Shown here piece after piece: positions 13,077-27,285 of a stretch of 64,000 nt of DNA. Both the position numbers and the translations under genes were made by a program. How positions within the stretch are numbered: position 1 is the first letter of the stretch; every line of letters begins with the position of its first letter. Location of the stretch: positions 558,001-622,000 of the forward strand of contig NZ_PVEP01000001.1 of the NCBI RefSeq assembly GCF_002973535.1. Reading direction: 5' to 3'. Below the pieces are notes generated by a model. That model did no database searches and had not been told where the DNA came from. It saw only the letters and a program-made list of their open reading frames with translations. This DNA comes from Albidovulum denitrificans. GTDB lineage: Bacteria > Pseudomonadota > Alphaproteobacteria > Rhodobacterales > Rhodobacteraceae.

Positions 13077-13141
13077 CCATCCGTTCAAATCGCGCATTTC
13101 ACTTGAAATTCAAGCGGATGACCGCGACAGAATCCCCAAAT

Positions 13142-13179
13142 TGTAGGCATTCTGTAGGCGTTTTGGTCGCTCGCCTACA
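13142..13179. promoter_or_regulatory. Candidate integrase arm-type sites, left end
   Basis: TGTAGGC occurs at 13142-13148 and 13153-13159, and inverted (GCCTACA) at 13173-13179. The middle copy lies in TTCTGTAGGCGTTTTG (13150-13165), which recurs exactly at 27286-27301 near the other end. Repeats at both ends of an integrated element are typical of integrase arm or excisionase sites. Confidence 0.5.
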
Positions 13180-13216
13180 GTGTCGAGCGATGCGCCTGCA
13201 ATGGGATCGGGGAGGA

Positions 13217-13290
13217 TGGAGCGGGCGAGCGGACTCGAACCGCCTTCGCTGGCTTGGGAAGCCAGGGCACAACCCATATACCACGCCCGC
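13217..13290 (-). tRNA. Element-borne tRNA-Gly(CCC)
   Basis: 74 nt on the minus strand with a perfect 7-bp acceptor stem (GCGGGCG/CGCCCGC), discriminator U and encoded CCA. The anticodon arm is CTGGC-TTCCCAA-GCCAG (anticodon CCC), with T arm GGCGG-TTCGAGT-CCGCT. The D stem is GTAT/GTGC and relies on G-U pairs, unlike the host gene (GCTC/GAGC). It has the same anticodon as the host tRNA split by the integration and differs at many positions, so it is a separate gene and not a duplicated att fragment. It probably compensates for the lost host tRNA. Confidence 0.93.
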
Positions 13291-13302
13291 ATGACGCGGT
13301 GT

Positions 13303-13983
13303 CTATCCGCGCCAGCCGTCATTGTCCAGTGTGCCATCGAAGGAATTCTTCTTCCGCAAGTTCTCGGCGGCGGTGAGCACCTGCAAGTTCAAGGGGACAT
13401 GCAAGCCGCAGACATTGGGATGCACCAGCGGAACGATGTGGTCAACGTGATGGACTTCGCCGGTGGAAAACGTCAACCTCGCGCACTCGTCATAGACGGC
13501 GCGAAGGGCCTCGCGATCCACCCAGGCTGGCATGGCGTTCATCTCGGCGGCGCGGCGGGCGGCGGTATACTCGCGCACCCGGTCTGGGTTTTCTTGTTCC
13601 CACTCTTTGATGCGGGCGATCCGGCGAGGCTTGTTGTCTTGATGCCACCGCGCCTTGTTCGCCCGGTCGCGCTCTCGAACCTCGGGGCGTGACTGATATT
13701 CCTGGACATACGCCTTCACGGAGGGATTGCTGTGGTAGCGGTTGCGCTCGTATTCCCGCGCTTTCTCCCGCTGGCCAGGCCGCTTAGCAATCTCGCCCTG
13801 CATGAACCTTTCGCAGGCCATGCAGTGCCCGTCCCGCGTCGTGCGAATGTCGATATGCCCCCGCTTGCAGGGCCTGCCCGTGAAGTACTTGTGCGAGCCG
13901 GTGCCGCGAGCCTCCGGCGCGCTCCCCGGCAGCAAGAGCCATTCCGGCCGTCCCGCATCCTGGGCTGCTTTCTCTCGGGTCAT
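13303..13983 (-). CDS. HNH endonuclease domain protein
   Basis: 226 aa. The C-terminal third holds an HNH nuclease core: EVHHVDHIVPL, then CGLHVPLNLQVLTAAENLRKKN, giving the H-H-H-N pattern. The middle is highly basic and helical (R/K/E-rich, ~70-150). An N-terminal segment, GRPCKRGHIDI followed by GHCMACERFM, forms a Cys/His zinc-binding motif seen in small phage proteins. Such genes act in phage packaging, homing or defence, and the role here is not determined. It is read away from the reverse transcriptase next to it, and ends 12 nt from the element's tRNA-Gly. Confidence 0.8.
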   Translation of the reverse strand: MTREKAAQDAGRPEWLLLPGSAPEARGTGSHKYFTGRPCKRGHIDIRTTRDGHCMACERFMQGEIAKRPGQREKAREYERNRYHSNPSVKAYVQEYQSRPEVRERDRANKARWHQDNKPRRIARIKEWEQENPDRVREYTAARRAAEMNAMPAWVDREALRAVYDECARLTFSTGEVHHVDHIVPLVHPNVCGLHVPLNLQVLTAAENLRKKNSFDGTLDNDGWRG

Positions 13984-14119
13984 CGCACCCTCCTTCGTTC
14001 AGGGCAAACGATGACATTGGCTTCGGCACTGCCGCAAAGGATGTCCGAGGTAGAACACCAGGCAATCCAGGTGGCGATAAGGCCGGATCAGAAAAAAGTG
14101 ATACCGGGTCTTGTATCTT

Positions 14120-14369
14120 GCAAACGAGCACCCACCTCATGAAGTGCCCCGGGGCACAGGACCCGGATGACCAGTGTTAAGGCCCGCAAGCGCTACCCGC
14201 GCCCAGGGGCACCGGGTGGTCGTGATTTCGGTCATGGCGCATCCTTCGCACATCGTGGTTACAACATACCACGCCAGGTTTTCTCGTACCGGAGGGCACC
14301 TCGGTGCCCGTTGATGGGAGCTAGGTTCAATAGCCCGGGCATTTGACGAACGGAGTCGCTATGCCCGGG
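14120..14369 (+). ncRNA. Candidate structured ncRNA upstream of the DRT2-like reverse transcriptase
   Basis: The 377-nt gap 13984-14360 has no convincing gene, and its right part is dense in secondary structure. Elements: palindrome GTGCCCCGGGGCAC at 14144-14157; stem CGTGGT/ACCACG with loop TACAACAT at 14254-14273; hairpin GGGCACC/GGTGCCC at 14294-14309; and a 9-bp inverted repeat CCCGGGCAT/ATGCCCGGG at 14334-14342 and 14361-14369 enclosing the RT ribosome site. DRT2 systems are known to carry a template ncRNA directly upstream of the RT in the same orientation. Boundaries are approximate and no promoter could be assigned with confidence. Confidence 0.55.
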
Positions 14370-15689
14370 TTTTACCTGCCTTCTGAAGACGAGTTTGATC
14401 CATCCACTGATGACTTTGTGCTGCCCGCCATATCGAAAGAGCGGAAGTACAAGCACTTCGACCTGCCACTGGTCGACCGCGAGTTGGCATTCGACTTTTC
14501 GCGAGAAGATGAACCGCACAGGTTCCTGCCCCTGCTTGGGTTCACCGATGTTGCACGGCGCTATGTCCGCAAGGCATCGGGGGACCGCGAGGTCAAGGTC
14601 AAGGAGCGGCCCATCCGGTTTGCGGGCCACGAGGACGCGGCCTATCTTCAAGCCTACGCCGGGCATCTCAACGGGTTCTATGAGAGGGCGCTGGCGCAGG
14701 ATGGCACCTCCGGCTCCGTTCTGGCTTACCGCCGAGGTGGCGGCACCAACATCCATCATGCCAAGGCGCTGTTCGATGAGATCAGGACGCGGGGCGACTG
14801 CACCGTCTTCGCGATGGACATATCCGGCTTCTTCGATTGCCTCGACCACCTTTTGCTCCGCGACGAGGTAGCCGGGCTACTGGGCGTGACCCGACTTGAT
14901 GGGCACCACGCAACCGTGTGGAAAAACGTTACGCGCTATTCCTGGGTCGAGACGGCCGATCTGGACAAGTTGCTTGGGCGGAAGCGCAACGGTCACGGCC
15001 GGGTGTGTTCGCCCGCAGACTTTTCAGATCATGTCCGAGGCCGGAAGGACGGCCTCATTCGGACACATGACCAGACTTTCGGAATCCCGCAGGGAACGCC
15101 AGTGTCCGGCCTGTATGCCAACATCTATCTCCGCACCTTTGACCGGGAGATGATCGCCTGGTGCGCCCGGCTGGGCGGTTCCTACAGGCGATATTCGGAT
15201 GACATAGCGGTCATCCTGCCGCTGGGTGCGAAGGTCCGGCATGTCGTCGCGGTGGTGGAGAAGATGCTTGCCGATTTCGGCTTGGCTATGTCCGTGGACA
15301 AGACAGACACCGCCAATTTCAAGTGCGGTCTTCTGGTATCGGCAACGCCAATTCAGTACCTCGGATTCACATTCGACGGGGTGAAAACGCTCATCCGCCC
15401 GTCGTCGCTTGATGCGTACCGGGGCAAGATGCGCCGCGGCATTCACGCCAAAATGGTTGCGGCGAAAGCGAAGAACATTCCTTCTCCCGAAGTGTTCAAG
15501 CGCGAAAGCCTCGCGCGGTATACCCATCTCGGGAAAAGGCGCAACTTCTTGCGCTACGCCTACAAGGCATCAGAGATCATGGGCTGCCCCGAGATCAGGC
15601 AGCAGGTCAGCCACCACGTTACCTGGTTCAACCGGGCCTGGGAGCGCGAAGCTGTGAGGGTGTTCGGCGGACTAGCCACGTCGCCATAA
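14361..15689 (+). CDS. Antiviral-type reverse transcriptase, DRT2-like (UG2 group)
   Basis: 442 aa from the ATG at 14361 (GGAG 6 nt upstream; an in-frame TTG at 14343 is less likely). RT motifs are clear: catalytic Asp in FAMDISGFFDCLDH (D153), GIPQGTPVSGLYANIYL (from residue 241) and YRRYSDDIAVIL (YSDD at 278-281). No maturase, endonuclease or integrase domain follows; the C-terminal ~120 residues are basic and helical, thumb-like. The N-terminus (KYKHFDLPL) and motif A resemble, from memory, the DRT2/UG2 defence RTs, which copy an upstream ncRNA into concatemeric cDNA during phage infection. A DGR RT is unlikely because the QG motif is the standard PQGTP. RT identity is certain; the DRT2 class is inferred. 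Base composition is visibly less GC-rich than the core genes. Confidence 0.9.
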   Translation: MPGFYLPSEDEFDPSTDDFVLPAISKERKYKHFDLPLVDRELAFDFSREDEPHRFLPLLGFTDVARRYVRKASGDREVKVKERPIRFAGHEDAAYLQAYAGHLNGFYERALAQDGTSGSVLAYRRGGGTNIHHAKALFDEIRTRGDCTVFAMDISGFFDCLDHLLLRDEVAGLLGVTRLDGHHATVWKNVTRYSWVETADLDKLLGRKRNGHGRVCSPADFSDHVRGRKDGLIRTHDQTFGIPQGTPVSGLYANIYLRTFDREMIAWCARLGGSYRRYSDDIAVILPLGAKVRHVVAVVEKMLADFGLAMSVDKTDTANFKCGLLVSATPIQYLGFTFDGVKTLIRPSSLDAYRGKMRRGIHAKMVAAKAKNIPSPEVFKRESLARYTHLGKRRNFLRYAYKASEIMGCPEIRQQVSHHVTWFNRAWEREAVRVFGGLATSP

Positions 15690-15799
15690 AAAATCCGCGC
15701 CCTCGGGAACCACAATCTCCGGTTGATTGCCGCCGCGGATGGGTCTTAGTGAACGTGTCGTTCACGGAATGTTCTGTGACCCATCAACGGAGTGACACC

Positions 15800-16438
15800 A
15801 TGACCGACACCAAGAAGATCACCGCCGCCGAACACCACCTGCTGGTTGCCTTCGCCCACTGCGAGAACACACCCCTGAACGGCGCGCCGATGCAGGCGCA
15901 GCAGCCGTCCGACCTGTCCACTTGGGTATGGCTCGACGACCGCAAGGTGGGCGACATGACGACCGCCCAGAAGAAAGGTGTTCTCGCATCGCTGGTGAAA
16001 AAGGGCTTCGTGACGGTGACGCCGGATTCCGAAGGCGACCTGATCGGCTGGACGGATTCCGGGTTCGCCCTGCTGAAAACGATCCTGGGCCAGCCGCTGC
16101 CCGCGCTGACGGTCCAGAAGGGCGCGCAGGAGCCTGTCAAGGGCAAGCCCGCGAAAGCCGCCGGGGCCGCGCCCAAGACCAGCCGCAAGCCCGGTGCAGA
16201 CGTGATCCTGTTCTTGCCCGCAGACGCACAGAAGGAGCCGCGCCCTGGCACGAAGCGCGCGGCCATCATCGACATGCTGCGCAAGCCGGCAGGCACCACG
16301 GTCGAAGAGATCGCCGCTGCGACCGGGTGGAGCCGCGCTGTTGCCTCGTCGGCGCTCTACGTTGACGTGAAAGGTAGCGGCTGGGGTGTGGAAAGACGCG
16401 AAGGGCGCCTGCACCTGCTGCCCGAAGGGGTGAAGTGA
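15800..16438 (+). CDS. DUF3489 domain-containing protein
   Basis: 212 aa from the ATG at 15800, which has GGAG at proper spacing; an in-frame upstream start at 15749 is weaker. Residues ~1-100 form a small helical domain (KITAAEHHLLVAFAHCE, KKGVLASLVKKGFVTVT) resembling a winged helix. A linker rich in K/A/P follows. The C-terminal DUF3489 segment reads RAAIIDMLRKPAGTTVEEIAAATGWS, also helix-turn-helix-like. DUF3489 proteins are common on mobile elements with no assigned function. The stop overlaps the next start (ATGA). Confidence 0.72.
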   Translation: MTDTKKITAAEHHLLVAFAHCENTPLNGAPMQAQQPSDLSTWVWLDDRKVGDMTTAQKKGVLASLVKKGFVTVTPDSEGDLIGWTDSGFALLKTILGQPLPALTVQKGAQEPVKGKPAKAAGAAPKTSRKPGADVILFLPADAQKEPRPGTKRAAIIDMLRKPAGTTVEEIAAATGWSRAVASSALYVDVKGSGWGVERREGRLHLLPEGVK

Positions 16439-16617
16439 TGATTGGGCGGCGGCCTATGCCGCCCGCCCGACCCTTCCCGCTGGTGCTGCGGCGCGAATGG
16501 CGGTGCGACATTCCGAACCCCCGGCTTGGCCGGAAGCGCGCCCTCGCCCTCTTAGCGGCGGCGCAGCCGACGGCCCGACCGAAGCCGTGGAGGGTGCTGA
16601 ATGATGCCCGTGGATGA
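16438..16617 (+). CDS. Small basic hypothetical protein
   Basis: 59 aa, Arg/Pro-rich, starting at an ATG that overlaps the stop of the DUF3489 gene by one base. No recognisable domain. The coupled start supports translation, but low complexity and small size keep confidence modest. Confidence 0.45.
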   Translation: MIGRRPMPPARPFPLVLRREWRCDIPNPRLGRKRALALLAAAQPTARPKPWRVLNDARG

Positions 16618-16792
16618 TGCCGCCGATGCCGTGATCCTCCGGTGGCCGAAGGCGCAGCAGGTCGCGCCACAGCCCAAGGGGCGAACGATACGCCAGCGCC
16701 TAGGCTGGCTGGCCTTTCCGATCTGGCTGGTTCGGCTGATCGTCGAGATGATCGGATGGCTGGCCGTGGTCGGCCTTATAACTCGCTTATGA
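16601..16792 (+). CDS. Small hypothetical membrane protein
   Basis: 63 aa. It begins inside the end of the previous small gene, with GGAGGGTGCTGA upstream of the ATG. Residues ~35-61 form one hydrophobic helix (LGWLAFPIWLVRLIVEMIGW and following residues). No family recognised. Last gene of the plus-strand cargo string before a bidirectional terminator. Confidence 0.5.
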   Translation: MMPVDDAADAVILRWPKAQQVAPQPKGRTIRQRLGWLAFPIWLVRLIVEMIGWLAVVGLITRL

Positions 16793-16797
16793 AAACA

Positions 16798-16836
16798 CGA
16801 CGGGCGGCCCCGGAAGGGACCGCCCGTCGCCGTTTT
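16798..16836. terminator. Bidirectional terminator between convergent cargo and phage genes
   Basis: 13-bp stem CGACGGGCGGCCC / GGACCGCCCGTCG (one G-U pair) with a 6-nt loop, followed on the plus strand by CCGTTTTA. On the minus strand it is followed by a TTTTC-containing stretch. It separates the plus-strand cargo from the minus-strand genes. Confidence 0.75.
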
Positions 16837-17140
16837 AAGTGGCCTCGCTGACAAACGCGCGGCCGAGGGTAATCCACGGCTTTTGCAGTGCGCGAAGGTC
16901 GTCAATGGTGTGCCCAATGGCAGACAGCGCAAAGCCAAACTCCTTGGAAACCATGAGGACCGAGGCCACCTCAAGGTCATCCGGGTTCCAGAGTTCGAGT
17001 TGAACTTGATCAACGATGATGCACTGCCCTTTCAAGGCGACTTGCGACTCGCAAGGGTGCGTACCGATGATTGCCATCGCGCGCAGCAAGTTCTCGCGCT
17101 TGACCTTGGGCAGCGCCTCCTGTGCCTCTGCGTAAGTCAT
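16835..17140 (-). CDS. Hypothetical phage-type protein
   Basis: 101 aa, soluble, mixed alpha/beta composition (AMAIIGTHPCESQVALKGQ, IIVDQVQLELW). No family recognised. Last of three small genes (17558 to 16835) that overlap by 4 nt each, so they form one operon. Confidence 0.6.
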   Translation of the reverse strand: MTYAEAQEALPKVKRENLLRAMAIIGTHPCESQVALKGQCIIVDQVQLELWNPDDLEVASVLMVSKEFGFALSAIGHTIDDLRALQKPWITLGRAFVSEAT

Positions 17141-17379
17141 GCCGCCACCGCCTTCCCGAAGCCCAGCGCGCGGTCGATGTAGAAGCGCATGGCGTCGAGT
17201 TCCTCGCGGATGTCGTTGTCGAGGACGACATACTTGAGGGCCTCAGTCATGGCATCGTGGCGCATGTCGATGGCGTGATCGCGAACCATCAGCACGACAG
17301 AGCGGTTGTAGGAACAGTCATCGGGATCGGTCGTCAGGATCGACGCGACGAGGGCGGAGGTATTGATCTCGTCGGTCAT
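17137..17379 (-). CDS. Hypothetical phage-type protein
   Basis: 80 aa, acidic and mostly helical (DAMTEALKYVVLDNDIREEL). No family recognised. Its start overlaps the previous gene's stop by 4 nt and its stop overlaps the next start by 4 nt. Confidence 0.6.
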   Translation of the reverse strand: MTDEINTSALVASILTTDPDDCSYNRSVVLMVRDHAIDMRHDAMTEALKYVVLDNDIREELDAMRFYIDRALGFGKAVAA

Positions 17380-17558
17380 TGCGCGGCCTCCGCATTGACG
17401 ATCCGGCTGACGTCGAGGTACCAGTAAGCGTCGCCCCGGTCGTCGTCGAACTGAAGCATGTAGTCGCCCTTCGGTGCCTCGATACGGGCATTGTAGATGC
17501 CCGCCGCATTGATCGCCCGCATGGCCGCGAGGGTCTTTTCTTCGATTTGGTAGTTCAT
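17376..17558 (-). CDS. Hypothetical small protein
   Basis: 60 aa starting MNYQIEEKTLAAMRAINAAG, acidic. No family recognised. First gene of the three-gene operon. The 199 nt upstream (17559-17757) are GC-rich with several short hairpins (for example CGTCCT-TCTG-AGGACG and palindrome CCGCAGCGCTGCGG) and hold no convincing gene. Confidence 0.6.
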   Translation of the reverse strand: MNYQIEEKTLAAMRAINAAGIYNARIEAPKGDYMLQFDDDRGDAYWYLDVSRIVNAEAAQ

Positions 17559-17757
17559 CTGTGGGTTCTCCTATGTTTCTTCCACAAGAGAGAATTTACC
17601 CCGACGGTGATTTGGCGTCCTTCTGAGGACGTTAGAGCGGATTGCAGTTCGTTGCCGAACGTCAGAGACGCGCGTCTCTTGGGGCGACGTCGAGCGCCCC
17701 ACGCGGACACCCGCCAGCGCGACAACCGCAGCGCTGCGGGCGCTCGCTGCGGCTCTC

Positions 17758-18471
17758 TCACCAGTAGCCGCGCAACGGCACTTGCCCGATGTGCGCACCG
17801 ACCGACCTGTGATCTGATAGCCAAAATGCCATTGCGCTCGCTAGCGCCATGTCGAGGTGGCCGCTGGCCGTGCCGCCCGTAAGCCGCATCCGGCCGGACA
17901 CGCCGATGGTCGCCTCGACGGCTTCCAACTCAGCTTGCAATTCCGACCGCATCGGGAAATCCCCGATTAGCAGATCGCCGGTGTGGAGCGCGCTATTCAG
18001 CGACCCGAGAAGCAGGTTGCGGGAGACATTGTTGAAGCGGACGCCCCTTTCGGTCGTCTCGGATTCGTTCTCGCCCGACACGATCTGGCAGCGAGTGTGC
18101 TGCACGGACTTCGCGTCGAGCAGATCACAATAGCTGCGGCCAGGGCCGCCTGCGTCGGCCACGAGATAGGACCGGCCAGCGAGCATCGGGTCCAGCATCA
18201 GGTTTTTCGTGACCTGGGCAAGCTGGACATACGACATGGCGGGCAGACGTTCGCTCCTGACGATTACCCTCCGGCGCGGGCCAAGCGTTTGGTCCGGGCG
18301 CGGCACCTGGCTATCTTCGATGATGGCGATGGCGTTCGCGTCCACGGTGCCTGCGCTCTGGGCAATATCAATTGCCACGAGGAACCGACGAAAACCGCGA
18401 ACCACGGTCACGGCCGGATCATCGCAGGGGATGACAAGTTCCTCGCCGACTTGCACGATCTCATGCGACAT
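17758..18471 (-). CDS. Large terminase, nuclease-domain protein (split TerL, C-terminal part)
   Basis: 237 aa. It matches the RNase H-like nuclease half of phage large terminases: first acidic strand FLVAIDIAQSAG, second acidic motif YLVADAGGPGRSYCDLL, and a C-terminal GHLDMALASAMAFW where relatives have HDDLVLA. The nuclease cuts concatemeric DNA during packaging. It starts 11 nt inside the end of the ATPase gene, with its own GGGAG ribosome site, in the +1 frame. The two products together (~500 aa) equal one normal TerL. Confidence 0.82.
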   Translation of the reverse strand: MSHEIVQVGEELVIPCDDPAVTVVRGFRRFLVAIDIAQSAGTVDANAIAIIEDSQVPRPDQTLGPRRRVIVRSERLPAMSYVQLAQVTKNLMLDPMLAGRSYLVADAGGPGRSYCDLLDAKSVQHTRCQIVSGENESETTERGVRFNNVSRNLLLGSLNSALHTGDLLIGDFPMRSELQAELEAVEATIGVSGRMRLTGGTASGHLDMALASAMAFWLSDHRSVGAHIGQVPLRGYW

Positions 18472-19255
18472 GGAGGAAATCTCCCAATTTCAGTTCCGGG
18501 GTGTCCGTGAAGGCGGCCGTGATCGTCTCCGGCGCGAAAAACTGGATGCCGCCCTGCCCCATCCAGCGCAGCAGGTGTTCCGTCGCGAATTGGTTCGGCG
18601 GCATGAAGCGCTGGTCGAAGGCGACTTTCTCGGCCATGCGGGGTATGTCCACCGACCGCGCGGAAATCTTCTCGATCTCGTTTTCTTCTTCCCAAAGGCG
18701 GTGGGCGAACGTGCCTTTCCGGCCCGGCGTGGTGATAGCCAGGATCCTGCCCCCAGTTTCTCGGATCGGCAGGGTGGCCGTGATTGCGTCTTCGCTGATG
18801 AACGAGAATTCCTCGTAGACGAGCAATCCGCCGTCCTTCACGCCAAGCCCGCGCGCGGATTCTCCGTCATTCCCGGCCGGGACGCAGACGATCACGGAGC
18901 CGTTGTCGAGTTCCATCGTGGTCTGCGTCAGCCGGGTCTTCTGGATCGGCAAACCGAGTTCGTGCCAGGCTTGGAGACACCGTTTAAACAGCAAGGTCGA
19001 TTGGCTGAGCGTCGGCGACAGGATCACGACGTTCCGGTTCGGAGTCGCGACCGTGTGGGCCGCGAGGATGCCGACCGTTTGCGATTTGCCGACACGACGC
19101 GAGCAGCAGGCATAGACGAAGGGCGAGGTGGAGGTCAGCATTTGCTGCTGCCAAGGATCGCACGGGCCACCGACGACGCGCCGGAACAGTGCGGTCGGGT
19201 CTAGCCGTTCCTCAAGCGTCCGAAGGTATAGGGCGAGTTGGTCGTCGTCATCCAA
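18461..19255 (-). CDS. Large terminase, ATPase-domain protein (split TerL, N-terminal part)
   Basis: 264 aa from a TTG at 19255, preceded by AAGAGG and overlapping the upstream gene's end; an ATG at 19297 in the same frame would overlap more. The packaging ATPase is recognised by Walker A (SRRVGKSQTV), Walker B (GGLLVYEEFSFI) and the coupling motif (ILAITTPGRKGTFAH). It ends ELKLGDFLHVA just before the nuclease domain would begin. The nuclease is encoded by the overlapping downstream gene, so the normally single TerL is two polypeptides here. Confidence 0.85.
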   Translation of the reverse strand: MDDDDQLALYLRTLEERLDPTALFRRVVGGPCDPWQQQMLTSTSPFVYACCSRRVGKSQTVGILAAHTVATPNRNVVILSPTLSQSTLLFKRCLQAWHELGLPIQKTRLTQTTMELDNGSVIVCVPAGNDGESARGLGVKDGGLLVYEEFSFISEDAITATLPIRETGGRILAITTPGRKGTFAHRLWEEENEIEKISARSVDIPRMAEKVAFDQRFMPPNQFATEHLLRWMGQGGIQFFAPETITAAFTDTPELKLGDFLHVA

Positions 19256-19856
19256 GGCGCAACCTCTTCTCCTTGGCGAGCGCCTGGAACGCCGCAAACG
19301 CCTCCGGGTATGCCTGGAACGTCGAGAACAGCACGTCAGACAGCTTCGCCCATTCGGGGCTTTCCTGAATGGGCGTGATGATCGTGGTCTTGGCCTGGAG
19401 AGCGGAATAGGCCTTCGTCAGCCGGTCGAGCGACTGCCCCATGTCGCGCAGCAGTTGAGCCAGCGCGGGCGCAAGGTCTTCGATGTCTCGCCCCTCGCCG
19501 ATCTTCGCCTTGATCAGCGCATAGATTTCCCTCTGCTCCTTGATCACGAGGCGAAGGCCGTTCTGGATTTCGTCCTGCCCCTCGTTCACCTTTTCGTCGA
19601 GCGCGTTCGCCGCTTGCTCCTGATCCATCACGAGGCACAGCTTCTGCACCTCGGGCGTGATGAATTTGGACCTGAACCTGTCCAAGGAGGCCGTGGTCAC
19701 GCCGCAGCGTTTGGCAATGTCCGTGAGGGTGCGGCGTTTCAGGACCACATCCAGAACAACGTCGTGAACATCTGGCCGATTGCGGATAACGGAACGCCGC
19801 CCAAGGCCTGACTCCTTGGGCAGCGCCGCTTTGATCTTGGCGGTGTCGATGGCCAC
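19248..19856 (-). CDS. Putative small terminase subunit-like DNA-binding protein
   Basis: 202 aa from a GTG at 19856 that shares a base with the preceding TAG (TAGTG); the longer open frame upstream is shadow. Residues ~35-65 resemble a helix-turn-helix (RTLTDIAKRCGVTTASLDRF), followed by a long helical, partly coiled-coil region and a C-terminal SDVLFSTFQAYPEAFAAF segment. Position directly before the TerL ATPase and the HTH plus coiled coil suggest TerS. This is inference from context, since TerS proteins are poorly conserved. Confidence 0.55.
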   Translation of the reverse strand: MAIDTAKIKAALPKESGLGRRSVIRNRPDVHDVVLDVVLKRRTLTDIAKRCGVTTASLDRFRSKFITPEVQKLCLVMDQEQAANALDEKVNEGQDEIQNGLRLVIKEQREIYALIKAKIGEGRDIEDLAPALAQLLRDMGQSLDRLTKAYSALQAKTTIITPIQESPEWAKLSDVLFSTFQAYPEAFAAFQALAKEKRLRLG

Positions 19857-20113
19857 TAGCGCGCCTCCGCGAGTGTCTGCCCGGCCAGTTCGACCAGGTG
19901 CGGCGCGATCTTGCGGACGACGCGGCGCGCGACCAAGCGCACGCCTGGATGCGCGACAGGGCCGCAGATGCGCGCGATGAAGTCCGGTTCCTCGGACGAG
20001 AGCAGGCAATCCAGAATTGCGTTGCGGGTGACTGCGACGTGAAACTCGGGCGGGCGGCGCTTGCCCGTCAGGAAGCCGCGCGCCACCTGGTCGGCAGCTT
20101 GGGTGAGGTCCAC
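19856..20113 (-). CDS. Hypothetical phage-type protein
   Basis: 85 aa from a GTG at 20113 (GGAG 7 nt upstream), preferred over an ATG at 20146 that would overlap the upstream gene. Sequence VTRNAILDCLLSSEEPDFIA suggests a small helical protein. No family recognised. In the packaging operon. Confidence 0.55.
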   Translation of the reverse strand: MDLTQAADQVARGFLTGKRRPPEFHVAVTRNAILDCLLSSEEPDFIARICGPVAHPGVRLVARRVVRKIAPHLVELAGQTLAEAR

Positions 20114-20117
20114 GGCA

Positions 20118-20480
20118 TCACTCCACGATCTCGATGGAGGTGCCATTCGCCTGTGCCTGCGCCTTCGCCCGGCGATAGATGGCGGGATCGCGCGCCTGCT
20201 CGCGAGTGAGCCGGATCGGCTCGGGCGTCAGGATGGATTTGATTGCCGCCGGGGAGTCGCCACGCTCCAGAAGGGTCTTGAGTTGCGAGAAGTCAGCGGC
20301 TGACTGTTCGCGTTGCCGCTTCGCATCCTTGATTTCATCCAGGAGGCGACGATTGTGCTCGACCACGCCGGACAGCTTCTCGTCGATCTGCTTCGTCAGC
20401 AGTTCCGACATGCTTTCCAGGAGGCGGGGCGATGCCTTCTCGATGAACTTGGCGAGAAGCGCGTCGTTTTCTTCGGACAT
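20118..20480 (-). CDS. Hypothetical coiled-coil protein
   Basis: 120 aa from the ATG at 20480 (AAAGGA upstream), starting MSEENDALLAKFIEKASPRL. Residues ~15-75 are charged amphipathic helix (LLTKQIDEKLSGVVEHNRRL, LLDEIKDAKRQREQSAADFS), probably a coiled coil. A scaffold-like role is conceivable but nothing specific is seen. A terminator lies just upstream, so a promoter must lie very close or transcription reads through. Confidence 0.55.
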   Translation of the reverse strand: MSEENDALLAKFIEKASPRLLESMSELLTKQIDEKLSGVVEHNRRLLDEIKDAKRQREQSAADFSQLKTLLERGDSPAAIKSILTPEPIRLTREQARDPAIYRRAKAQAQANGTSIEIVE

Positions 20481-20504
20481 GGAGTTTCCTTTCACGTTCT
20501 AGGC

Positions 20505-20536
20505 AAAGAAAAAGGCAGGCCCGAGAGCCTGCCTTT
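20505..20536 (-). terminator. Terminator after the 234-aa gene
   Basis: Perfect 10-bp stem AAAGGCAGGC / GCCTGCCTTT with a 6-nt loop. On the minus strand it is followed by TTTTTCTTT, so it stops transcription coming from 21337. Confidence 0.82.
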
Positions 20537-20632
20537 CCCTGAACGTGGAAGTGCAGCAGGAACCCCGCTCCTACGCGTTCAATATGCGACATTCCGTGGA
20601 GTCCACTCGACCACAGAACGCAGCAGTCCGCC

Positions 20633-21337
20633 CTAAGCCGCTGCGCGCGCTGCCAATTTCCAGGTAATGCCGTCCAACTCGGCCAGCCCGGCTTTGCGCG
20701 CCTTGTCGAGACGCCACCTAAGGGCCTCCTTGTCCATGGTCCCGCCCATGTCGAAGAACAGTTCCCGCAGGGTCTTCGGGCCTTCGCGCAGGTGCCGCAA
20801 GATGGCTGCCGACTGCTTGAGCTTCGCATCCTGTTCGATGGCCTTCGCGAGGCGGCGTTCTTCGTCCGCTGTGGCCCTTGCCCTCTCGGCTGCCGCGTTG
20901 CGTTCGGCGGCTGCTGCTTCCGCGCGGCGCTTTTCTGCGTCCGTTTTGCGACGGGCGAGCCAGTCCGCATGGGCCGCTTCACGGGCGGCGGTGGCTTCGG
21001 CGGTGTTCGCATCTCGCGCCTTCTTCTCAGCCCACAGCGCCAGAGCATCTGCCGAGAAGTCGGTCAGCGAGCGCCCGTCGGGCATCAAAGGGGGCGGCAG
21101 CTTGCGGTCCAAGATGGCGATAGTGCGACGCCGCAGCACGTCGCCGTCGAGGCCGACGAGGGAGCAGAGGTGGTTGCGGTCCGCAGCATCTGCACCCTTC
21201 TCGGCTGTCAGCCAGCGCAAGGCAGACAAACGCGTCGAAGTGCGCATTGTGTCAGATACAGTCGAACCGAGACCCCCGAAGAGGTCCCGGATCACTTGAG
21301 CGATGATCGCGGAGACGAGGCGGGATTCCGGCGTCAT
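20633..21337 (-). CDS. Hypothetical protein with long charged helix
   Basis: 234 aa. Residues ~100-170 are an Ala/Arg/Glu-rich continuous helix (EKKARDANTAEATAAREAAH, RRAEAAAAERNAAAERARAT). The C-terminus (ILRHLREGPKTLRELFFDM, ALRWRLDKARKAGLAELDGI) resembles a winged-helix fold. It begins 3 nt after the portal-like gene ends. No family recognised. Confidence 0.6.
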   Translation of the reverse strand: MTPESRLVSAIIAQVIRDLFGGLGSTVSDTMRTSTRLSALRWLTAEKGADAADRNHLCSLVGLDGDVLRRRTIAILDRKLPPPLMPDGRSLTDFSADALALWAEKKARDANTAEATAAREAAHADWLARRKTDAEKRRAEAAAAERNAAAERARATADEERRLAKAIEQDAKLKQSAAILRHLREGPKTLRELFFDMGGTMDKEALRWRLDKARKAGLAELDGITWKLAARAAA

Positions 21338-21340
21338 AGG

Positions 21341-22705
21341 TCAGTTCAGGCCGCCCGCGCCCAGGATCGGGAAGGGTGGCGACAGGTCGCCGCCCTCCTC
21401 CTCGATCAAGGTCTTTTCCTCTTCCCAGGTGCGGTCTGCTGGGGCGACTTCGCCCTGTTGCAGGTTCTCCCACAAAGTCTGCCGCGAGATCGCACCCGAT
21501 TGCCAAAGCTTGAGATTGGCCTCGATCATCTTCGGGTCTGCCGTGACTTCCAGGAAGTCGCGCGACAGGGTGATGCACGTCTCGTCAGGCGATGCGCCAA
21601 CCCACTCGGCGGCCAAGCGCAGCAGGAAGTTGAGGGCGGCTTCCGTCGAGACGACCGCGCCGTGAAGCAGCGACAGTTCCGAACGCGTCCGCATCGAAGC
21701 GGTCGAGATGTCTTCGTTGCGGTTGATGGTGGTCGAGAGCATCCGCGCGCCCATCGAGACCATCATGGATTCGAGATCGGCCATCTCGTCGCGCATGGCC
21801 GAGACGCCTGCACCCGTAAATTCCAACTGGCCGACCTGGCAGTTCTCGGGCAGCAGCCACAGCGCACCCGCGCCGATGGCTTGCGGCACCTTGTTCGCGG
21901 GCACGGAGCCGGAAATCCAGGGCGTCGGGCTGGCCGTCAGGTGCAGCGCGTGGCGGCGGTCGCAGGAGGTGGCGAAGTGTGCGAGGGCCGTCTTGCACAG
22001 CGACAGGAAGGGCGGCGTGACGTCTTCGGGCCGGATGCCTTCATGGGACAGCAGGACGAATGGGATGGCGTTGAGCGCTTTGCCGTTGACCGTGGGGATC
22101 ACTTCTTCGCCTACGTTCACCCGGTTCTTCTGGTCGTCCAGGATGAAGCGGCGGAACTTGTAGATGGTGTCTTCCAGGAGCAGTTCGTAGTGGACCTGGG
22201 AACCGTCGAAGTCTTCGTCTGCCTCGAGCACCACGCGGGTCAGCACCTTGCGGCCATCCACGAAAGCCGTGGTGTAGTCCGCGACGCACTCGGCCTCGAA
22301 CCGGGCGATGTGAGGCACCGTGTTGACCGATGTGCCGCTGGCCGGAAAATCGAGCAGCAACCCAACGCGACCCAGAGACAGCACATCGCGCAGCACGTCT
22401 TCCAGGAGGATCGACAGCGGCGCGTTGTCGTCGGTCGCGTTGAGGCGAAGGGGTTCCAGCCGAGAAGGGAGGCGAACCACAGGGGCCTTGCGGCCCGCGA
22501 TGCCGACCAAGGCGCGCAACGTCATCTCCGGCACGCCCGAGAAGTGCCCACGATTGAGATAGGCGGCATACTGCTGGGCGGTCATCGCGTCCGGCCGAGG
22601 CGTTAGCCACTCGCCCGCCTGTTTCACGGCATCGTCGCCCTCAAGGCAGGTGCGGATCAGCTTATATTGGCTGCTGAGGCCTTGGCGGATGGGCATCGGG
22701 ATCAC
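21341..22705 (-). CDS. DUF4055 (portal-like) phage protein
   Basis: 454 aa from a GTG at 22705 that overlaps the upstream TGA (GTGA). The N-terminal part YAAYLNRGHFSGVPEMTLRA, followed by LVGIAG, and the overall layout match DUF4055, a family of phage portal-like proteins. The portal forms the dodecameric DNA gate at the capsid vertex and docks the terminase. Middle region ISGSVPANKVPQAIGAGALW and helical SMMVSMGARMLSTTINRNED fit portal stem/wing regions. It comes before the terminase genes in the operon, and no capsid gene follows. Confidence 0.8.
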   Translation of the reverse strand: MIPMPIRQGLSSQYKLIRTCLEGDDAVKQAGEWLTPRPDAMTAQQYAAYLNRGHFSGVPEMTLRALVGIAGRKAPVVRLPSRLEPLRLNATDDNAPLSILLEDVLRDVLSLGRVGLLLDFPASGTSVNTVPHIARFEAECVADYTTAFVDGRKVLTRVVLEADEDFDGSQVHYELLLEDTIYKFRRFILDDQKNRVNVGEEVIPTVNGKALNAIPFVLLSHEGIRPEDVTPPFLSLCKTALAHFATSCDRRHALHLTASPTPWISGSVPANKVPQAIGAGALWLLPENCQVGQLEFTGAGVSAMRDEMADLESMMVSMGARMLSTTINRNEDISTASMRTRSELSLLHGAVVSTEAALNFLLRLAAEWVGASPDETCITLSRDFLEVTADPKMIEANLKLWQSGAISRQTLWENLQQGEVAPADRTWEEEKTLIEEEGGDLSPPFPILGAGGLN

Positions 22706-22965
22706 GCCATCACGAAGGGGAAGACATGGACGAGCGGGATGACCGCGCAGCCCGAGCCGACATGAATCTTGAGATCGGTCGAATTCTTCACGAGGAAGAT
22801 CGCACCGGCAATCTGCTCGCGAGTTTCCGGTTCATCGAGCAGCGCTTTGATCGCGGCGACGAGCGACGCCTTCGCCATGGGCACGGTGAACGTCCAGGAC
22901 GACGAGTCAGTCGCGCCCGTGATCTGCGTGGTCTCCCCGTGATCGTCGAGGGTGTATCTTTGCAT
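22702..22965 (-). CDS. Hypothetical phage-type protein
   Basis: 87 aa, MQRYTLDDHGETTQITGATD at the start. Segments WTFTVPMAKASLVAAIKALL and IAGAIFLVKNSTDLKIHVGS suggest a compact alpha/beta protein. Its stop overlaps the portal start by 4 nt. No family recognised. Confidence 0.6.
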   Translation of the reverse strand: MQRYTLDDHGETTQITGATDSSSWTFTVPMAKASLVAAIKALLDEPETREQIAGAIFLVKNSTDLKIHVGSGCAVIPLVHVFPFVMA

Positions 22966-23007
22966 TGAAGGTTCCTGTGTGGGGTCGGTGGACGAGGGTG
23001 GAAAGGA

Positions 23008-23289
23008 CTAGCGCGCTGCCTCGTCCACCGGATGAGGGCCATGCGCGTGACGATCATCGGTGCCAGCGATTGCAATGCCCAGCGGGCGACCGTTGCAGAG
23101 CGTTGCAGATTGCCCGGCGCGCCAGCAGGCGAGGCATTGGCCGGTTCTGGTGAGGTGGGCGCTGGTGGGATGGTCGGGGCATTGCTCGGAGGCGTCGGGC
23201 GAATAGAGCGGCTGCTCTGTCTCGCGCGCGGTGTGGCGGTCGGGGTAACGAGGGATGCGCGCGAGGGTGCCGTTGACGAGGCAGACCAT
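23008..23289 (-). CDS. Small zinc-ribbon-like hypothetical protein
   Basis: 93 aa. A Cys/His cluster (CPDHPTSAHLTRTGQCLACW) resembles small zinc-binding phage proteins and echoes the N-terminal motif of the HNH protein at 13303. Starts 2 nt after the preceding stop. Function unknown. Confidence 0.5.
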   Translation of the reverse strand: MVCLVNGTLARIPRYPDRHTARETEQPLYSPDASEQCPDHPTSAHLTRTGQCLACWRAGQSATLCNGRPLGIAIAGTDDRHAHGPHPVDEAAR

Positions 23290-23291
23290 GG

Positions 23292-23474
23292 TCAGGCGTT
23301 GGCGGCTTGCATGGCTTCAACGAATTTCCAGGATGCGGCAACCAGCGCCTCGTGCGCGCCTTGGCGAACACCCGCTGCCGCTTTCGGGTCCAGCGCAACG
23401 GCCGCCTTGATCGAGTGGGCGACAACGAGGCGGCTGAGGGCGATTTCTACGGCATTGCTTACGTCAGTCTTCAT
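23292..23474 (-). CDS. Small helical hypothetical protein
   Basis: 60 aa from the ATG at 23474 (a GTG directly before it is the alternative). Helical: VEIALSRLVVAHSIKAAVAL, HEALVAASWKFVEAMQAANA. First gene of the minus-strand portal/packaging string after the regulatory gap. No family recognised. Confidence 0.5.
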   Translation of the reverse strand: MKTDVSNAVEIALSRLVVAHSIKAAVALDPKAAAGVRQGAHEALVAASWKFVEAMQAANA

Positions 23475-23917
23475 CACCGGGGTCTCCGTTCAGGGGTGGT
23501 GCGAGGATCATCGCGGGGCGACCAGGGAAACGCGACCGGAGCAATGAGGTAGCGCGGCGGGGCGGCTGCGGTGTTCTAGGTGGTGGGCGGGGTGACATGG
23601 ATTCTCTGAAAAATGGCGCTGACTGTGGTCCCGGGGTTCCCTCTCTGGAAAAAGGGGGGTCATTCGATGAACTTGAGGACTTATGCAAGCACGTCATGCC
23701 TTTTCCGATTACCTATGCGTTGGCTGCATACGTCCTAGATCACATGCTCACGCAGCATACGTTCTAATCGCGAATAACGCTTTGCTTTCAATTAGGTTGG
23801 GCGGCGCGTAGTCGGCGGTTTGTAGTGACTTTGCAGGCGGCGCAGATTGTATGCAGTTGCATACAGTCCTTAGCGGACGCCCTTCCCTGACTGTGAGTGG
23901 CGACGTGACCGTGATCG
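23475..23917. promoter_or_regulatory. Gene-free region with GCATAC operator-like sites
   Basis: No convincing gene. GCATAC occurs at 23726-23731, 23755-23760 and 23859-23864, and inverted at 23849-23854. The last two form the near-perfect palindrome TGTATGCA-GT-TGCATACA (23848-23865). This placement upstream of the packaging operon suggests a repressor or activator site. The regulator is unknown. Confidence 0.45.
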
Positions 23918-24250
23918 GCCTCGCAAAGGCGCAAACCACCCCATTTTCTAACATGCCATACATTTAATTAATGGATGGATGGACGTTCTATTCCCTTGCG
24001 CGACCAGAAATACATGGATGTTTGCCTCCATCCATCCATTGATTTTTCGTCATGGATGTTGCGCTCGCCCCCATTTTGCGCCTTTGCGAGGCTGCCATCG
24101 CCCGAGCGCACAGCAACGCGCCCGAAGACACCACAACACAGCAAACCGCCATGAATTAATGGATGGCGCTCAAAGCAACGGGGACGCCCGAAGACGCCCC
24201 CGAAAACCTCCATCCATTAATTTTCCCGAATGGATGGCGCCATCCATTAA
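23918..24250. other. Candidate replication origin of the element
   Basis: An 18-bp perfect inverted repeat (GCCTCGCAAAGGCGCAAA family) lies at 23918-23935 and 24075-24092. Between and beyond are iteron-like repeats: TTAATGGATGG at 23968-23978 and 24156-24166, inverted CCATCCATTAA at 24210-24220 and 24240-24250, plus partial copies (24014-24020, 24028-24040, 24052-24058, 24230-24237). The region adjoins the primase gene, whose TAA stop lies within the last iteron. Iterons, long inverted repeats and AT-rich patches next to a primase are typical of satellite and plasmid origins. Confidence 0.6.
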
Positions 24251-25680
24251 AACGGCACATCCACCTGTGCCCCACGCGCCCTTTCTTCGGCCTGTGTCGT
24301 CAGTTCGGCCATGTGCTGCTTGTGCATGGCGATGATGTCTTCGACCGATGCCTCAACATCCTCGACCTTCTCGAAGACGAACTCGCGGTTGTGCCCGCGC
24401 GTCATGCGCCAGCCGTGCGTCTTCTCGATCAAGCCCGACGCCTGCACGATCCGGGGCGAGATCGCCCGCGCATTGCCGCCGACGCGCGCGAACCGCAGAT
24501 CGACATGCTCGGGCGCAGTTTCGGATGCCTGAGCCTGAGCGATCATCTGGGCCGACTTCACGTCTTGCTCGGCCGGGATCTTTTGGTTCGCCCGGTACAT
24601 GCCAAGCGCGCAACTGTTGCGGAAGTCATTCGTGTCGATGCGCACCCATTCACGCGGCTTCAACTCGGCATAGGCAACGTCGGATTGATCGCGCAGAATG
24701 CGGACGTCGGACAGGAAGTCGAGGGCGAGCAGCTTGCGCTTCTCGGTTGCCGTGAAGGGTACCTTGCCCGTGTAGCCGTGCTCTTGCGCAAAACGCCAGA
24801 ACGACAGTGCCGAGTATTTCTTCGCGGATGACAGCTTGTCCCATTCGCGGTCGTCACCCGGCTTGAACGCCCTCGACGTCTGCGACCACGCGACCCAACG
24901 ACCGCGCGCCCACTCGCTTTCCTTGCCGAAGGCGGCTTGCAGGCAGATGCCCGCAGCGCCCCAATCGTCGCGGTTGTCGGGGTCGTACTTCTGGATGAAG
25001 GCGTCAAAGGCCGCATCGCGGTCTTCTGAGGTGGTGTCAGCGGCCTTCTTGCGACCGGCTTTTTTGCCCGCGTATTCGAACACGATGAAGTCGTCGTCCG
25101 AAGTGGTCCAGGCACCCGCGTCGAGCAGAACCAGCCGGTGTGATTGCCTGCCGAACGGCAGCGCACAAACCTGCTGTCCCGCGCCCTTCGGCAGCACCTC
25201 AACGAAACCGTCCGCGAGTTCGCCACCGGCCTTACGTTCGAGGCCAGCCTTTTTCAGGATGAAGTCGGCCTGCTCTTTCACCTGGTCCACGCGCTTCGGC
25301 GTCTTGAAGGTGACCCAGATATGTGCGCCGTGACCGCTGCCCGAGATAAAGCCGTAGGCCGGGATTTCATGCTCGTCGAGCACCGTCGCGACGGCGCGGT
25401 AGCGGGCAATGATCTCGTCTTGGGTCAGGCGCTGATTGTGATCGTCGAAGTCGAAGATCATGAAGCGAGTATGGTCGCGCGCGTCGGGCGCGGTTTCTGT
25501 GCCGACGTTGAGCCAGATCGCGCGGCAATCTTCGCCACGTTTCAGATGCTCGCGCAGTTCATCGTCGGTCAATGGTTCATTGATCGGCCGATAGTACCAC
25601 TTGTTCTTCGCCGTATCCCAGGCACGGACAGAATACCCGCTCTTGTCAGCGAGGTTCCGCCAGAGTCGCAAACATTCCAT
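24247..25680 (-). CDS. Archaeo-eukaryotic-type primase (TOTE/PriCT-2-like)
   Basis: 477 aa from the ATG at 25680; the frame is open upstream into the HTH gene's shadow. AEP catalytic motifs are visible: FMIFDFDDHN (acidic pair near residues 77-80), FISGSGHGAHIWVTF (SxH-type motif, ~111-125) and LPKGAGQQVCALPFG. A following segment (DDWGAAGICLQAAFG, RGRWVAWSQTSRAF) resembles PriCT-2 domains. These enzymes make primers and can polymerise DNA for plasmids, phages and satellites. It is paired with the iteron region at its 3' end. No helicase domain was seen, so host or helper helicase is probably used. Confidence 0.78.
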   Translation of the reverse strand: MECLRLWRNLADKSGYSVRAWDTAKNKWYYRPINEPLTDDELREHLKRGEDCRAIWLNVGTETAPDARDHTRFMIFDFDDHNQRLTQDEIIARYRAVATVLDEHEIPAYGFISGSGHGAHIWVTFKTPKRVDQVKEQADFILKKAGLERKAGGELADGFVEVLPKGAGQQVCALPFGRQSHRLVLLDAGAWTTSDDDFIVFEYAGKKAGRKKAADTTSEDRDAAFDAFIQKYDPDNRDDWGAAGICLQAAFGKESEWARGRWVAWSQTSRAFKPGDDREWDKLSSAKKYSALSFWRFAQEHGYTGKVPFTATEKRKLLALDFLSDVRILRDQSDVAYAELKPREWVRIDTNDFRNSCALGMYRANQKIPAEQDVKSAQMIAQAQASETAPEHVDLRFARVGGNARAISPRIVQASGLIEKTHGWRMTRGHNREFVFEKVEDVEASVEDIIAMHKQHMAELTTQAEERARGAQVDVPF

Positions 25681-25685
25681 GATGA

Positions 25686-25886
25686 TCAGCCACCCGCCTT
25701 CACGCGGCCGGCTTCCATCCAGGCATCGAGATCGGATTTCTTGTACTTCACGCGCCCGGCGGCCTTGAAATAGTCCGGGCCGCGCCGCGGCGACATGGTG
25801 CGCCACAGTTCGAGGTTCGACTTGGAATAGCCGAGGTAGTGAGCGGCTTGCGCCGTGTCGAGGTATTCATTCTGGGTGTCGCGCAT
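25686..25886 (-). CDS. Small helix-turn-helix protein (AlpA/excisionase-like)
   Basis: 66 aa from the ATG at 25886 (GGGGAG 9 nt upstream). The layout YLDTAQAAHYLGYSKSNLEL, then KYKKSDLDAWMEAG, is a MerR/AlpA-type winged HTH as in excisionases and satellite regulators. Lies between integrase and primase, where satellites carry their master regulator or Xis. The 258 nt between it and the integrase stop include one CCATCCAT motif (25970-25977) but no gene. Confidence 0.72.
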   Translation of the reverse strand: MRDTQNEYLDTAQAAHYLGYSKSNLELWRTMSPRRGPDYFKAAGRVKYKKSDLDAWMEAGRVKAGG

Positions 25887-26144
25887 AGCGAGCATCTCCC
25901 CGTTCAAGGGTTAGATGTCTCACTGCGCGTCCCGTGGGTGCCGAGGTTTTCCGCTTAGCGGCGGTTTACCCATCCATCAGGATCGGGCTCCGCCCAGCTA
26001 CCTCTGCCGCACTACCCCACGCGTTTCCGCAGTCATTCGGCCGCCACGTTCATCACGGCCAAGACGGGTTCAGTAAGAAAGAATGTAGTGCGCTTTCAGA
26101 CGCATTACAAGGACCACAACAAGGTAGAGTCAGAAATTCCCCAG

Positions 26145-27272
26145 TTAGATCAGGCCCCTGCGTTTAAACGCCGAGATGATCTGCTCCATCGGGGCGCGCA
26201 ACCGCTCGTGTCCGACGACGATATACCGCGCCCCCGTGACCGACGTCGGGGTGTGGTTCAGCAGGCGGCCGACCGTTTCTTCAAGCAAGCCGCCCTCGTT
26301 CTCCGCGAAGGTCGCAAAGGTGCGGCGGTGGTCGTGCGCGGACCAAGCGAGACGCGTGGGCGCGCGCAGGTGAACGGCGTGGCGGGTGCCGTGGAAGACG
26401 TATTCCGAACGGTATGCGCGCATCGGTTCGAGGATGGCGTGATGCTCGGGCAGAAGCGGCAGGTTGAAGGCGCGGCCGTTCTTCGTCTCGGGCAGATGCA
26501 GGTGATCGTCAAACACCTGCTCCCACCGCAGGGTCATCGCCTCCTCCTTGCGCAAGCCGGTGAGCAGCAGGAAGTAGTAATAGGCGCGGTGGACGGGATT
26601 CTCGATGGCATCGACCGCTTTCTTCCATGCGTCGAGGTCGTCGATGATCCGATGCGACGGCTCCTCCGGGAACCACTCGACGGCCACCGTCGGGCATTCG
26701 GGAAGGTCATGCGTCCGGCGCGCATGGTTCCAGATCGAGCGGAAGGATTTCAGGACATGGTTGGCCACGCGCTCCCCGCCGATCATGCAGGGACGCCCGC
26801 GAGAGTTGACGCCCTCCCGCTCGACTGCGATCCGGCTGTGGGCCGCAACGCAATCCGCCTTCGTGATCTCGTCCAGGGGGCGCTTGAGCCAGGCTTTCAG
26901 ATGGCTTTCCATCTGCGACTTCACCTGATCCTTGTTCGCCTCTGACCGCAGTTTCGGCCGCGCGATGTAGGCGGCCGTCGCCTCGGTCAGCGTCGGAATC
27001 TTTGCCGCGCGCAGGCGCTTCGCAACGGCTCCCGAGGCGTATTCCCCGACGAGAAGACCGGCTTCGTACCGGGCATCTGCCACGCGTGTTTCCGGCCAGG
27101 TGCCGAGCTTCGTCCTGACCGTCTTCCCCTTCACGTCCTTCTGGAAGTAGAAGGTTTTCGTCTCCTTCCCCGTGAACAGGCCGAAACCCTTGATCTCGGT
27201 GTCCCAGAATTTCGCGTTCGGCGCAGCGGTCTTCACCGCCGCCTCCGTGAACTTCATCCTCTCACTCGCCAT
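26145..27272 (-). CDS. Tyrosine integrase of the 14-kb element
   Basis: 375 aa from the ATG at 27272 (AAAGGG upstream). The N-terminal arm-binding domain (FTEAAVKTAAPNAKFWDTEI, KGFGLFTGKETKTFYFQKDV) is of the DUF4102 type found in P4-like and tRNA-targeting integrases. Catalytic residues: R in LLTGLRKEEAMTLRW, HxxR in AHDHRRTFATFAE, and H...Y in NHTPTSVTGARYIVV. It reads toward the element's interior, with its start 141 nt from attR. It explains insertion in the tRNA-Gly. Confidence 0.95.
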   Translation of the reverse strand: MASERMKFTEAAVKTAAPNAKFWDTEIKGFGLFTGKETKTFYFQKDVKGKTVRTKLGTWPETRVADARYEAGLLVGEYASGAVAKRLRAAKIPTLTEATAAYIARPKLRSEANKDQVKSQMESHLKAWLKRPLDEITKADCVAAHSRIAVEREGVNSRGRPCMIGGERVANHVLKSFRSIWNHARRTHDLPECPTVAVEWFPEEPSHRIIDDLDAWKKAVDAIENPVHRAYYYFLLLTGLRKEEAMTLRWEQVFDDHLHLPETKNGRAFNLPLLPEHHAILEPMRAYRSEYVFHGTRHAVHLRAPTRLAWSAHDHRRTFATFAENEGGLLEETVGRLLNHTPTSVTGARYIVVGHERLRAPMEQIISAFKRRGLI

Positions 27273-27285
27273 CGCCCATCGCCCT

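Follow-up and report, generated by a model that had tools for sequence, protein, structure and literature searches.

A reverse transcriptase locus of DRT2 type, probably of a distinct alphaproteobacterial clade, with a conserved upstream RNA and a predicted non-ACA repeat template

The described system with which our locus can best be compared is KpnDRT2 of Klebsiella pneumoniae (PMC12039810, PMC11100668 and PMC12596737; structure 9c0i). In this system, the RNA upstream of the KpnDRT2 reverse transcriptase (RT) has a GC-rich terminal stem and carries an opposite-strand template, whose repeat unit has a length divisible by three and bears a -10 box, a Shine-Dalgarno sequence, an ATG and a stop-less frame (Neo). 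The jump motif given there is ACA and the unit measures 117-120 nt, 117 nt being the commonest repeat among 42 close KpnDRT2 homologues in what PMC12039810 reports. The same article argues that DRT2 resembles telomerase in that repeats are added through renewed annealing to a short motif repeated in the template; telomerase belongs to another RT family and makes far shorter repeats, and the likeness is there called convergent, so we treat it as an analogy only. According to PMC11100668, Neo was hard to annotate in divergent DRT2 clades, where other mechanisms are possible.

Here we describe a locus from Albidovulum denitrificans, within a window of 64,000 nt (the whole stretch of DNA that was analysed), that is likely to be the DRT2 of a distinct alphaproteobacterial clade. 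Its RT can be aligned with that of KpnDRT2 from residue 26 to 416 (5e-70), shares its predicted fold and likewise has an RNA upstream, and the template features and GC-rich terminal stem listed above all have observed or predicted counterparts. In contrast to KpnDRT2, the RT is only about 35% identical and has a longer N-terminus, the predicted jump motif is GUU, the unit is probably 102 nt long, the -35 is weak, the terminal stem overlaps the RT start codon and RpoH-like boxes precede the RNA. Coordinates are collected in Table 1.

Table 1. Features of the locus and of its carrier element; positions count from the first nucleotide of the window.
Feature	Position	Strand	Basis
Carrier element, ~14.3 kb, in split tRNA-Gly(CCC)	13077..27412		shared 9-nt core GCTTCCCAA at 13068-13076 and 27413-27421
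RpoH-like boxes CTTGTA-N16-CCACCT before ncRNA	14110..14137	+	pattern in 11/11 window-clade loci
Predicted ncRNA (ends inferred)	14144..14378	+	near-invariance in 11 loci; fold; plasmid match
5' hairpin CCGGG/CCCGG	14149..14166	+	5 pairs in 11/11 rows, two via G-U changes
Predicted neo template/repeat unit, 102 nt	14176..14277	-	unit finder, frame, gap classes
Candidate -35 TTGCGG of junction promoter	14184..14189	-	17 bp from -10 across junction; weak match
Neo start: ATG (14233-14235) and Shine-Dalgarno AAGGA (14242-14246)	14233..14246	-	11/11 rows
ACAACA-loop hairpin; loop includes complement of -10 box	14254..14273	+	z -3.1; 6 pairs in 11/11 rows
-10 box TATGTT of predicted junction promoter	14263..14268	-	TATNNT in 10/11 rows
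3'-domain hairpin	14294..14309	+	z -4.6; compensatory changes in 4/6 pairs
Terminal hairpin	14332..14371	+	z -5.0; 99.2% of cells paired; 9/11 pairs never vary
DRT2 reverse transcriptase, 442 aa	14361..15689	+	Drt2 profile, tree, structure match, coding-type variation

The RT is of the DRT2 (UG2) type, as a preliminary description made from the window's letters had proposed, since it scores 437.1 bits against the NCBIfam Drt2 model (curated cut-off 390), its predicted structure is best matched by KpnDRT2 9c0i (1.4e-29) and it falls inside the DRT2 branch of our tree. Drt2 is also its best PADLOC match. The model has a mean pLDDT of 71, with residues 1-42 below 50. The motifs named in that description for a 442-aa RT, D153, PQGTP (within IPQGTP, 242-247) and YSDD (278-281, a YxDD), are present in the listed ORF, and in an alignment of 21 DRT2 RTs all their residues except T246 and S279 occupy invariant columns. 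The RT gene stands single and Pfam returns RVT_1 as its sole domain, in line with the claim that maturase and integrase domains are lacking. It is scarcely credible that the enzyme plays no part in defence and comes instead from a retron, a group II intron or a similar source: the weak similarity to such RTs stays below the cut-offs (group_II_RT_mat 74 against 300, retron St85 40.5 against 235), with Drt2 models ahead by hundreds of bits, the RT sits among DRT2 in the tree, and the next fold match reaches 2.8e-10.

The tree was a quick search on 47 RTs, comprising 38 DRT2 rows and nine others with reference RTs of other UG classes absent; its support values are not bootstraps and several end branches are long. 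With these limits, the DRT2 rows separate from the nine other RTs with support 98, so that the RT groups where it had been expected to cluster. All 11 rows of the window clade fall into one group (100), which sits on a long stem (1.27). Its placement close to the Kpn-like group is weakly supported (87), and a second alphaproteobacterial clade forms a separate branch. The close homologues are L002-L007 (genome contigs), L008 (a Ketogulonicigenium plasmid), L010 and L054-L057 (genomes). L001 is the window itself and L009 the contig of the L008 plasmid; L057 and L005 were left out of the rows because, where aligned, they duplicate L004 and L056 respectively. Matches above the Drt2 cut-off occurred in 3 of 394 genomes sampled from the family, 5 of 390 from the order, 2 of 385 from the class and 1 of 398 from the phylum, the window's own genome being included in each count. 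When the element was compared with plasmids at the DNA level, one record, that of Ketogulonicigenium, matched it closely and only over 14145-15652, the RNA plus the RT; since this alone of the whole element has a plasmid match, RNA and RT travel together. Peptide patterns of the RT found no relative in viral contigs, and the lone match of an ncRNA pattern there (L061) was judged unrelated by eye; three distant phage records were noted separately. Among the titles and abstract openings listed in our literature searches, we found no description of an alphaproteobacterial DRT2 RNA, and these RTs may already stand in published supplementary trees.

The preliminary description had placed a structured RNA in a gene-free leader ahead of the RT. 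The ORF list indeed holds no convincing gene between 13983 and 14361, and across 11 distinct window-clade loci positions 14144-14375 are nearly invariant, so that the leader is conserved among homologues; the DNA 5' of the RNA is unalike among these rows except for two short boxes. The predicted fold of 14144-14378 has a free energy of -105.2 kcal/mol (z -2.6), and 3 of 200 shuffles were at least as stable. With a structure of 49 pairs, 94.7% of cells are paired over the 11 rows, a share that drops to 26-48% once the structure is slid by 1-3 columns. None of 500 shuffles reached the observed value for cells paired or for the covariation score, while 124 of 500 reached the number of double-change pairs and 449 of 500 the number of pair types, two controls that do not favour the structure. 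Compensatory changes lie mostly in the 3'-domain hairpin; most other pairs never vary and therefore say little on structure. On this conservation, we regard the predicted upstream RNA as real. Its terminal and 3'-domain hairpins are stronger than the ACAACA-loop hairpin. The 5' hairpin, alone no stronger than shuffles, is a possible counterpart of the 5' handle. A pseudoknotted 3' domain is among the features by which DRT2 RNAs are known, and here the terminal stem and the covarying hairpin belong to that region. Two pseudoknot partners considered by eye for the GAACGGA loop, UCCUUC and CUCGU, each require a bulge, and we claim neither.

Searches with covariance models, which had been proposed as a check on the DRT2 assignment, allow a partial check. 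An Rfam scan of the window returned two tRNAs and nothing else. A model built from the clade and run on 35 sources scored well on the window alone (299 bits; next best E 0.56) and matched none of the Kpn-like or other DRT2 loci given to it. The window-clade RNA is either too diverged from other DRT2 RNAs for covariance matching or unrelated to them. The expectation that fold and template would differ from those of the studied DRT2s is borne out by a predicted jump motif other than ACA and a probably different unit length.

Within this RNA, the region read as template is set apart by its gaps. All three gap classes within 14160-14290 of the 11-row alignment are 3 nt long, and none of the 12 outside is a multiple of 3; assuming random scatter among the 15 classes, some of which may represent one event, the chance that exactly the three in-frame classes fall inside is 1 in 455, or 1 in 220 counting 14140-14360 only. 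On the minus strand, the Neo frame is free of stops across 14167-14277 in every row, while the other five frames of the template contain 34, 14, 6, 11 and 21 stop codons over the 11 rows. The -10 box reads TATGTT, TATATT, TATAGT or TATGAT in the rows and TATATA in L010, and in a joint alignment it coincides with the TATAAT of L011-L014 and L058 and the TATTGT of L051. The family of the RT, the conserved RNA, the frame constraint on the template, the start signals and the position of the -10 box are features of the aligned sequences themselves. A repeat gene is very probably hidden in the template.

The hairpin to which the preliminary description had drawn attention is real and in the window does show ACAACA in its loop (UUACAACAUA), but the motif is retained in only 5 of the 11 rows. 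The suggestion that this loop guides template jumping is best abandoned: it is the complement of the -10 box, and the same site holds the complement of TATAAT in the second clade.

Two readings without a repeat-borne Neo have to be weighed against these observations. It is possible in principle that the cDNA acts without Neo or via another product, the open frame being a by-product of a GC-rich structured RNA. Alternative mechanisms are left open for divergent clades in PMC11100668, and the three codon positions of the Neo frame vary about equally (15, 15 and 17 of 39), so that no strong selection on the amino-acid sequence is visible. We nevertheless consider this improbable, because gaps in threes are confined to the template and because the Shine-Dalgarno and ATG are invariant, and the -10 nearly so, at aligned places in two clades. 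Less probable still is that the minus-strand ATG belongs to nothing more than a conventional short antisense ORF transcribed from chromosomal DNA. All 11 rows do contain such a linear ORF, with a length between 32 and over 50 codons; beyond the template, however, its sequence and end differ by row and gaps are not in threes, and by eye the chromosomal sequence shows no -35 spaced 16-18 bp from the -10 box.

The ends of the repeat unit are harder to place than its frame. We used a unit finder that scores microhomology, length, frame, junction promoter and start signals, and ran it on 31 leaders, a set outside which L054-L057 fall. In the window clade, GTT with 102, 105 or 108 nt ranked first in 7 of 9 loci, other units leading in L005 and L010. 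The Kpn-like loci L038, L044 and L045 all returned ACA with 117 nt (tied in L038), and the five loci run from the second clade all returned CGTT with 129 nt. We could see no coherent unit in the leaders of L015-L019, L039-L043, L047 and L048. As single-locus observations, L046 gave a predicted AGAT jump motif with 111 nt and L052 a GAAG with 132 nt; if true, these would be two further jump-motif variants. In each of six loci, the unit score was reached by none of 100 shuffles. Of 296 random pieces of the window, 4 scored as high as the window's own unit (22.5) and 2 as high as the known ACA type (26.5), so one locus by itself is poor proof of its unit. Nor does openness of the frame place the unit ends, since the Neo ATG frame stays open in 828 of 841 possible units.

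No ACA-1/ACA-2 pair flanking the template is conserved in the window clade. Since PMC12039810 describes ACA for close KpnDRT2 homologues, the clade lies outside the Kpn-like ACA subgroup and is still DRT2. The predicted copies of the jump motif are GUU-1 at 14176-14178 and GUU-2 at 14278-14280; the GTT microhomology is present in 10 of 11 rows, L054 having GTA for GTT-2. The second clade (L011-L014, L058 and L051, of which L058 was aligned and lies outside the unit-finder set) is informative here. Its Neo ATG, Shine-Dalgarno, -10 hairpin and GTT all align with those of the window clade, in which GTT lies 8 nt from the -35 and 9 nt from the -10; these distances are equal in the two clades. The GGTT of the window clade aligns with the CGTT of the second, and the junction peptides are alike (LNLAWYVVT, FNARWYNVT, LNARRYCIT). 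These three correspondences favour the 102-nt unit, and on balance we incline towards 102 nt (14176-14277) with a GUU jump motif. The second clade differs in its predicted CGUU, its longer unit, a consensus -35 TTGACA in all five loci run, and a terminal stem that precedes the RT start in two loci folded, clearly only in L014. Its predicted Neo is hydrophobic.

The predicted sigma-70-type junction promoter has a conserved -10, aligned with TATAAT, and a -35 that is weak or dependent on the unit chosen. A unit of 111 nt (about 14166-14276, 37 codons), working by the same mechanism with the rival -35 TTAACA at 14175-14180 and an imperfect GAUG/GGUU pairing for the jump, would give the best junction promoter of all lengths tested (on average 7.26, where the GTT unit scores 4.78), with a spacing of 17 and a length divisible by 3 in every one of the 11 rows, and the minimum-energy fold of 14160-14282 is closed by GACC (14160-14163) and GGUU (14277-14280). 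Against it, a 3-nt microhomology is found in no row (n = 11), L007 has TAAACA at the -35, and the peptide across the junction is then a poorer match for that of the second clade. We regard this longer unit as the less likely placement, while taking it seriously. Other units (GTG with 81, AGG with 96, CGC with 87 nt and more) pass the frame and length tests and have poorer junction promoters.

Upstream of the RNA, a pattern CTTGNA-N16/17-CYANNT occurs in 20 of 28 alphaproteobacterial DRT2 loci, where about 0.006 are expected per locus, and in none of 8 other loci. By group it was found in all 11 window-clade loci, in 5 of 6 of the second clade, as CTTGAA boxes, and in 4 of 11 other alphaproteobacterial loci; only this last count is independent, as loci of the window clade and some of the second had served, by eye, to define the pattern. 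A stricter form holds in 10 of 11 window-clade loci and none of the six of the second clade. The more distant alphaproteobacterial loci L041, L042, L043 and L059 all have such RpoH-like boxes with CTTGAA. The boxes resemble the RpoH motif of Rhizobium etli, given as cTTGaa-N16-CgATaT in PMC4167512. Reading them as sigma-70 boxes was rejected, since by eye no -10-like box lies 17 nt past CTTGNA. It is conceivable that an RpoH (heat-shock) start lets infection stress raise RNA and RT, that GUU replaces ACA and that the jump signal shifts between clades while the neo logic stays; we put this combined proposal forward tentatively, and would not presume it to hold.

The 3' end predicted for the RNA lies within the RT gene. 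The longest listed ORF begins with a TTG six codons upstream of ATG 14361. Directly behind that ATG, variation is of coding type, which supports its use: codon positions 1, 2 and 3 vary at 13, 7 and 25 of 30 sites, and single differences in the early RT, counted over row pairs, comprise 444 synonymous and 97 others. The first RT codons hardly vary among rows. This start codon lies in the 3' arm of the terminal hairpin, with the RT Shine-Dalgarno ACGGAG (14350-14355) on its inner side. When the window, L055 and L010 are folded, the start codon is part of the terminal stem, while a long terminal stem stops before the RT start in L014, L044, L038, L046 and L048 and is absent from the minimum-energy fold of L011. 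For KpnDRT2, PMC11100668 gives one start site for ncRNA and RT and a processing step that is unknown. If this arrangement holds here, cleavage near 14375-14380 would cut the RT message within its fifth to seventh codon. Because the hairpin contains the RT start codon, a given transcript can probably be mature ncRNA or message for the RT, but not both. This overlap suggests that a dangerous RT would keep itself in check.

The locus was thought to be cargo of a satellite-like element, and this stands. A host tRNA-Gly(CCC) is split at the anticodon into parts at 13040-13076 and 27413-27458, and the element between them has recognisable integrase, HTH, primase-polymerase, portal and terminase-like genes. 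The scan, which covered part of the small ORFs and left several proteins without a match, revealed neither a capsid nor a tail gene. Long att repeats were absent from the 20 direct-repeat families listed; the 9-nt core came to light on reading the sequence. The element brings its own tRNA-Gly(CCC) at 13217-13290 (minus strand). Genome-wide, the 3'-half pattern of Gly-CCC occurs at these two places only, with no third copy, and the element's tRNA may be the genome's only intact one. DRT2 lies near one element end, behind this tRNA and an endonuclease VII-like gene (13303-13983, minus strand; PHROG 1035, 2.4e-17) that sits between the tRNA and the DRT2 RNA; in L005 and L007, too, a tRNA-Gly(CCC) directly precedes the ncRNA. 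Elsewhere on the element, a terminase-like gene (17758-19297, minus strand) is spread over two overlapping ORFs: 18461-19297 matches the terminase large subunit, and 17758-18471, with a PHROG of unknown function as its sole match, looks like the second half that the former lacks. A frameshift, a split gene or a sequencing error could each account for this. The primase-polymerase, with an AEP-TOTE domain (24247-25806, minus strand), is likely the element's replication protein.

Taken together, we think it likely that this is the anti-phage DRT2 system of a distinct clade of alphaproteobacterial DRT2s, working by the neo mechanism. The RT would bind the RNA transcribed from just upstream, copy the central template 14176-14277 and jump from GUU-1 back to GUU-2, yielding head-to-tail cDNA. 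Each repeat junction would set the -10 TATGTT 17 bp behind the weak -35 TTGCGG, and the double-stranded concatemer could be transcribed from this junction promoter. A stop-less Neo with 34 residues per repeat (MTEITTTRCPWARVALAGLNLAWYVVTTMCEGCA) would then be translated from the Shine-Dalgarno and ATG, and the Neo protein would arrest growth. Judged from sequence comparison, the neo logic appears to persist, and the differences lie in the jump motif, the length of the unit, the class of promoter and the layout of RNA and start codon. The predicted features that are new here are jump motifs other than ACA, a terminal hairpin that includes the RT start codon, and RpoH-like boxes.

Two alphaproteobacterial clades now offer predicted non-ACA units and definite Neo peptides, which makes the question of divergent clades experimentally addressable. 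If these predictions are true, what the mechanism needs, namely start signals, a -10 and a short repeated motif, would be separable from ACA itself.
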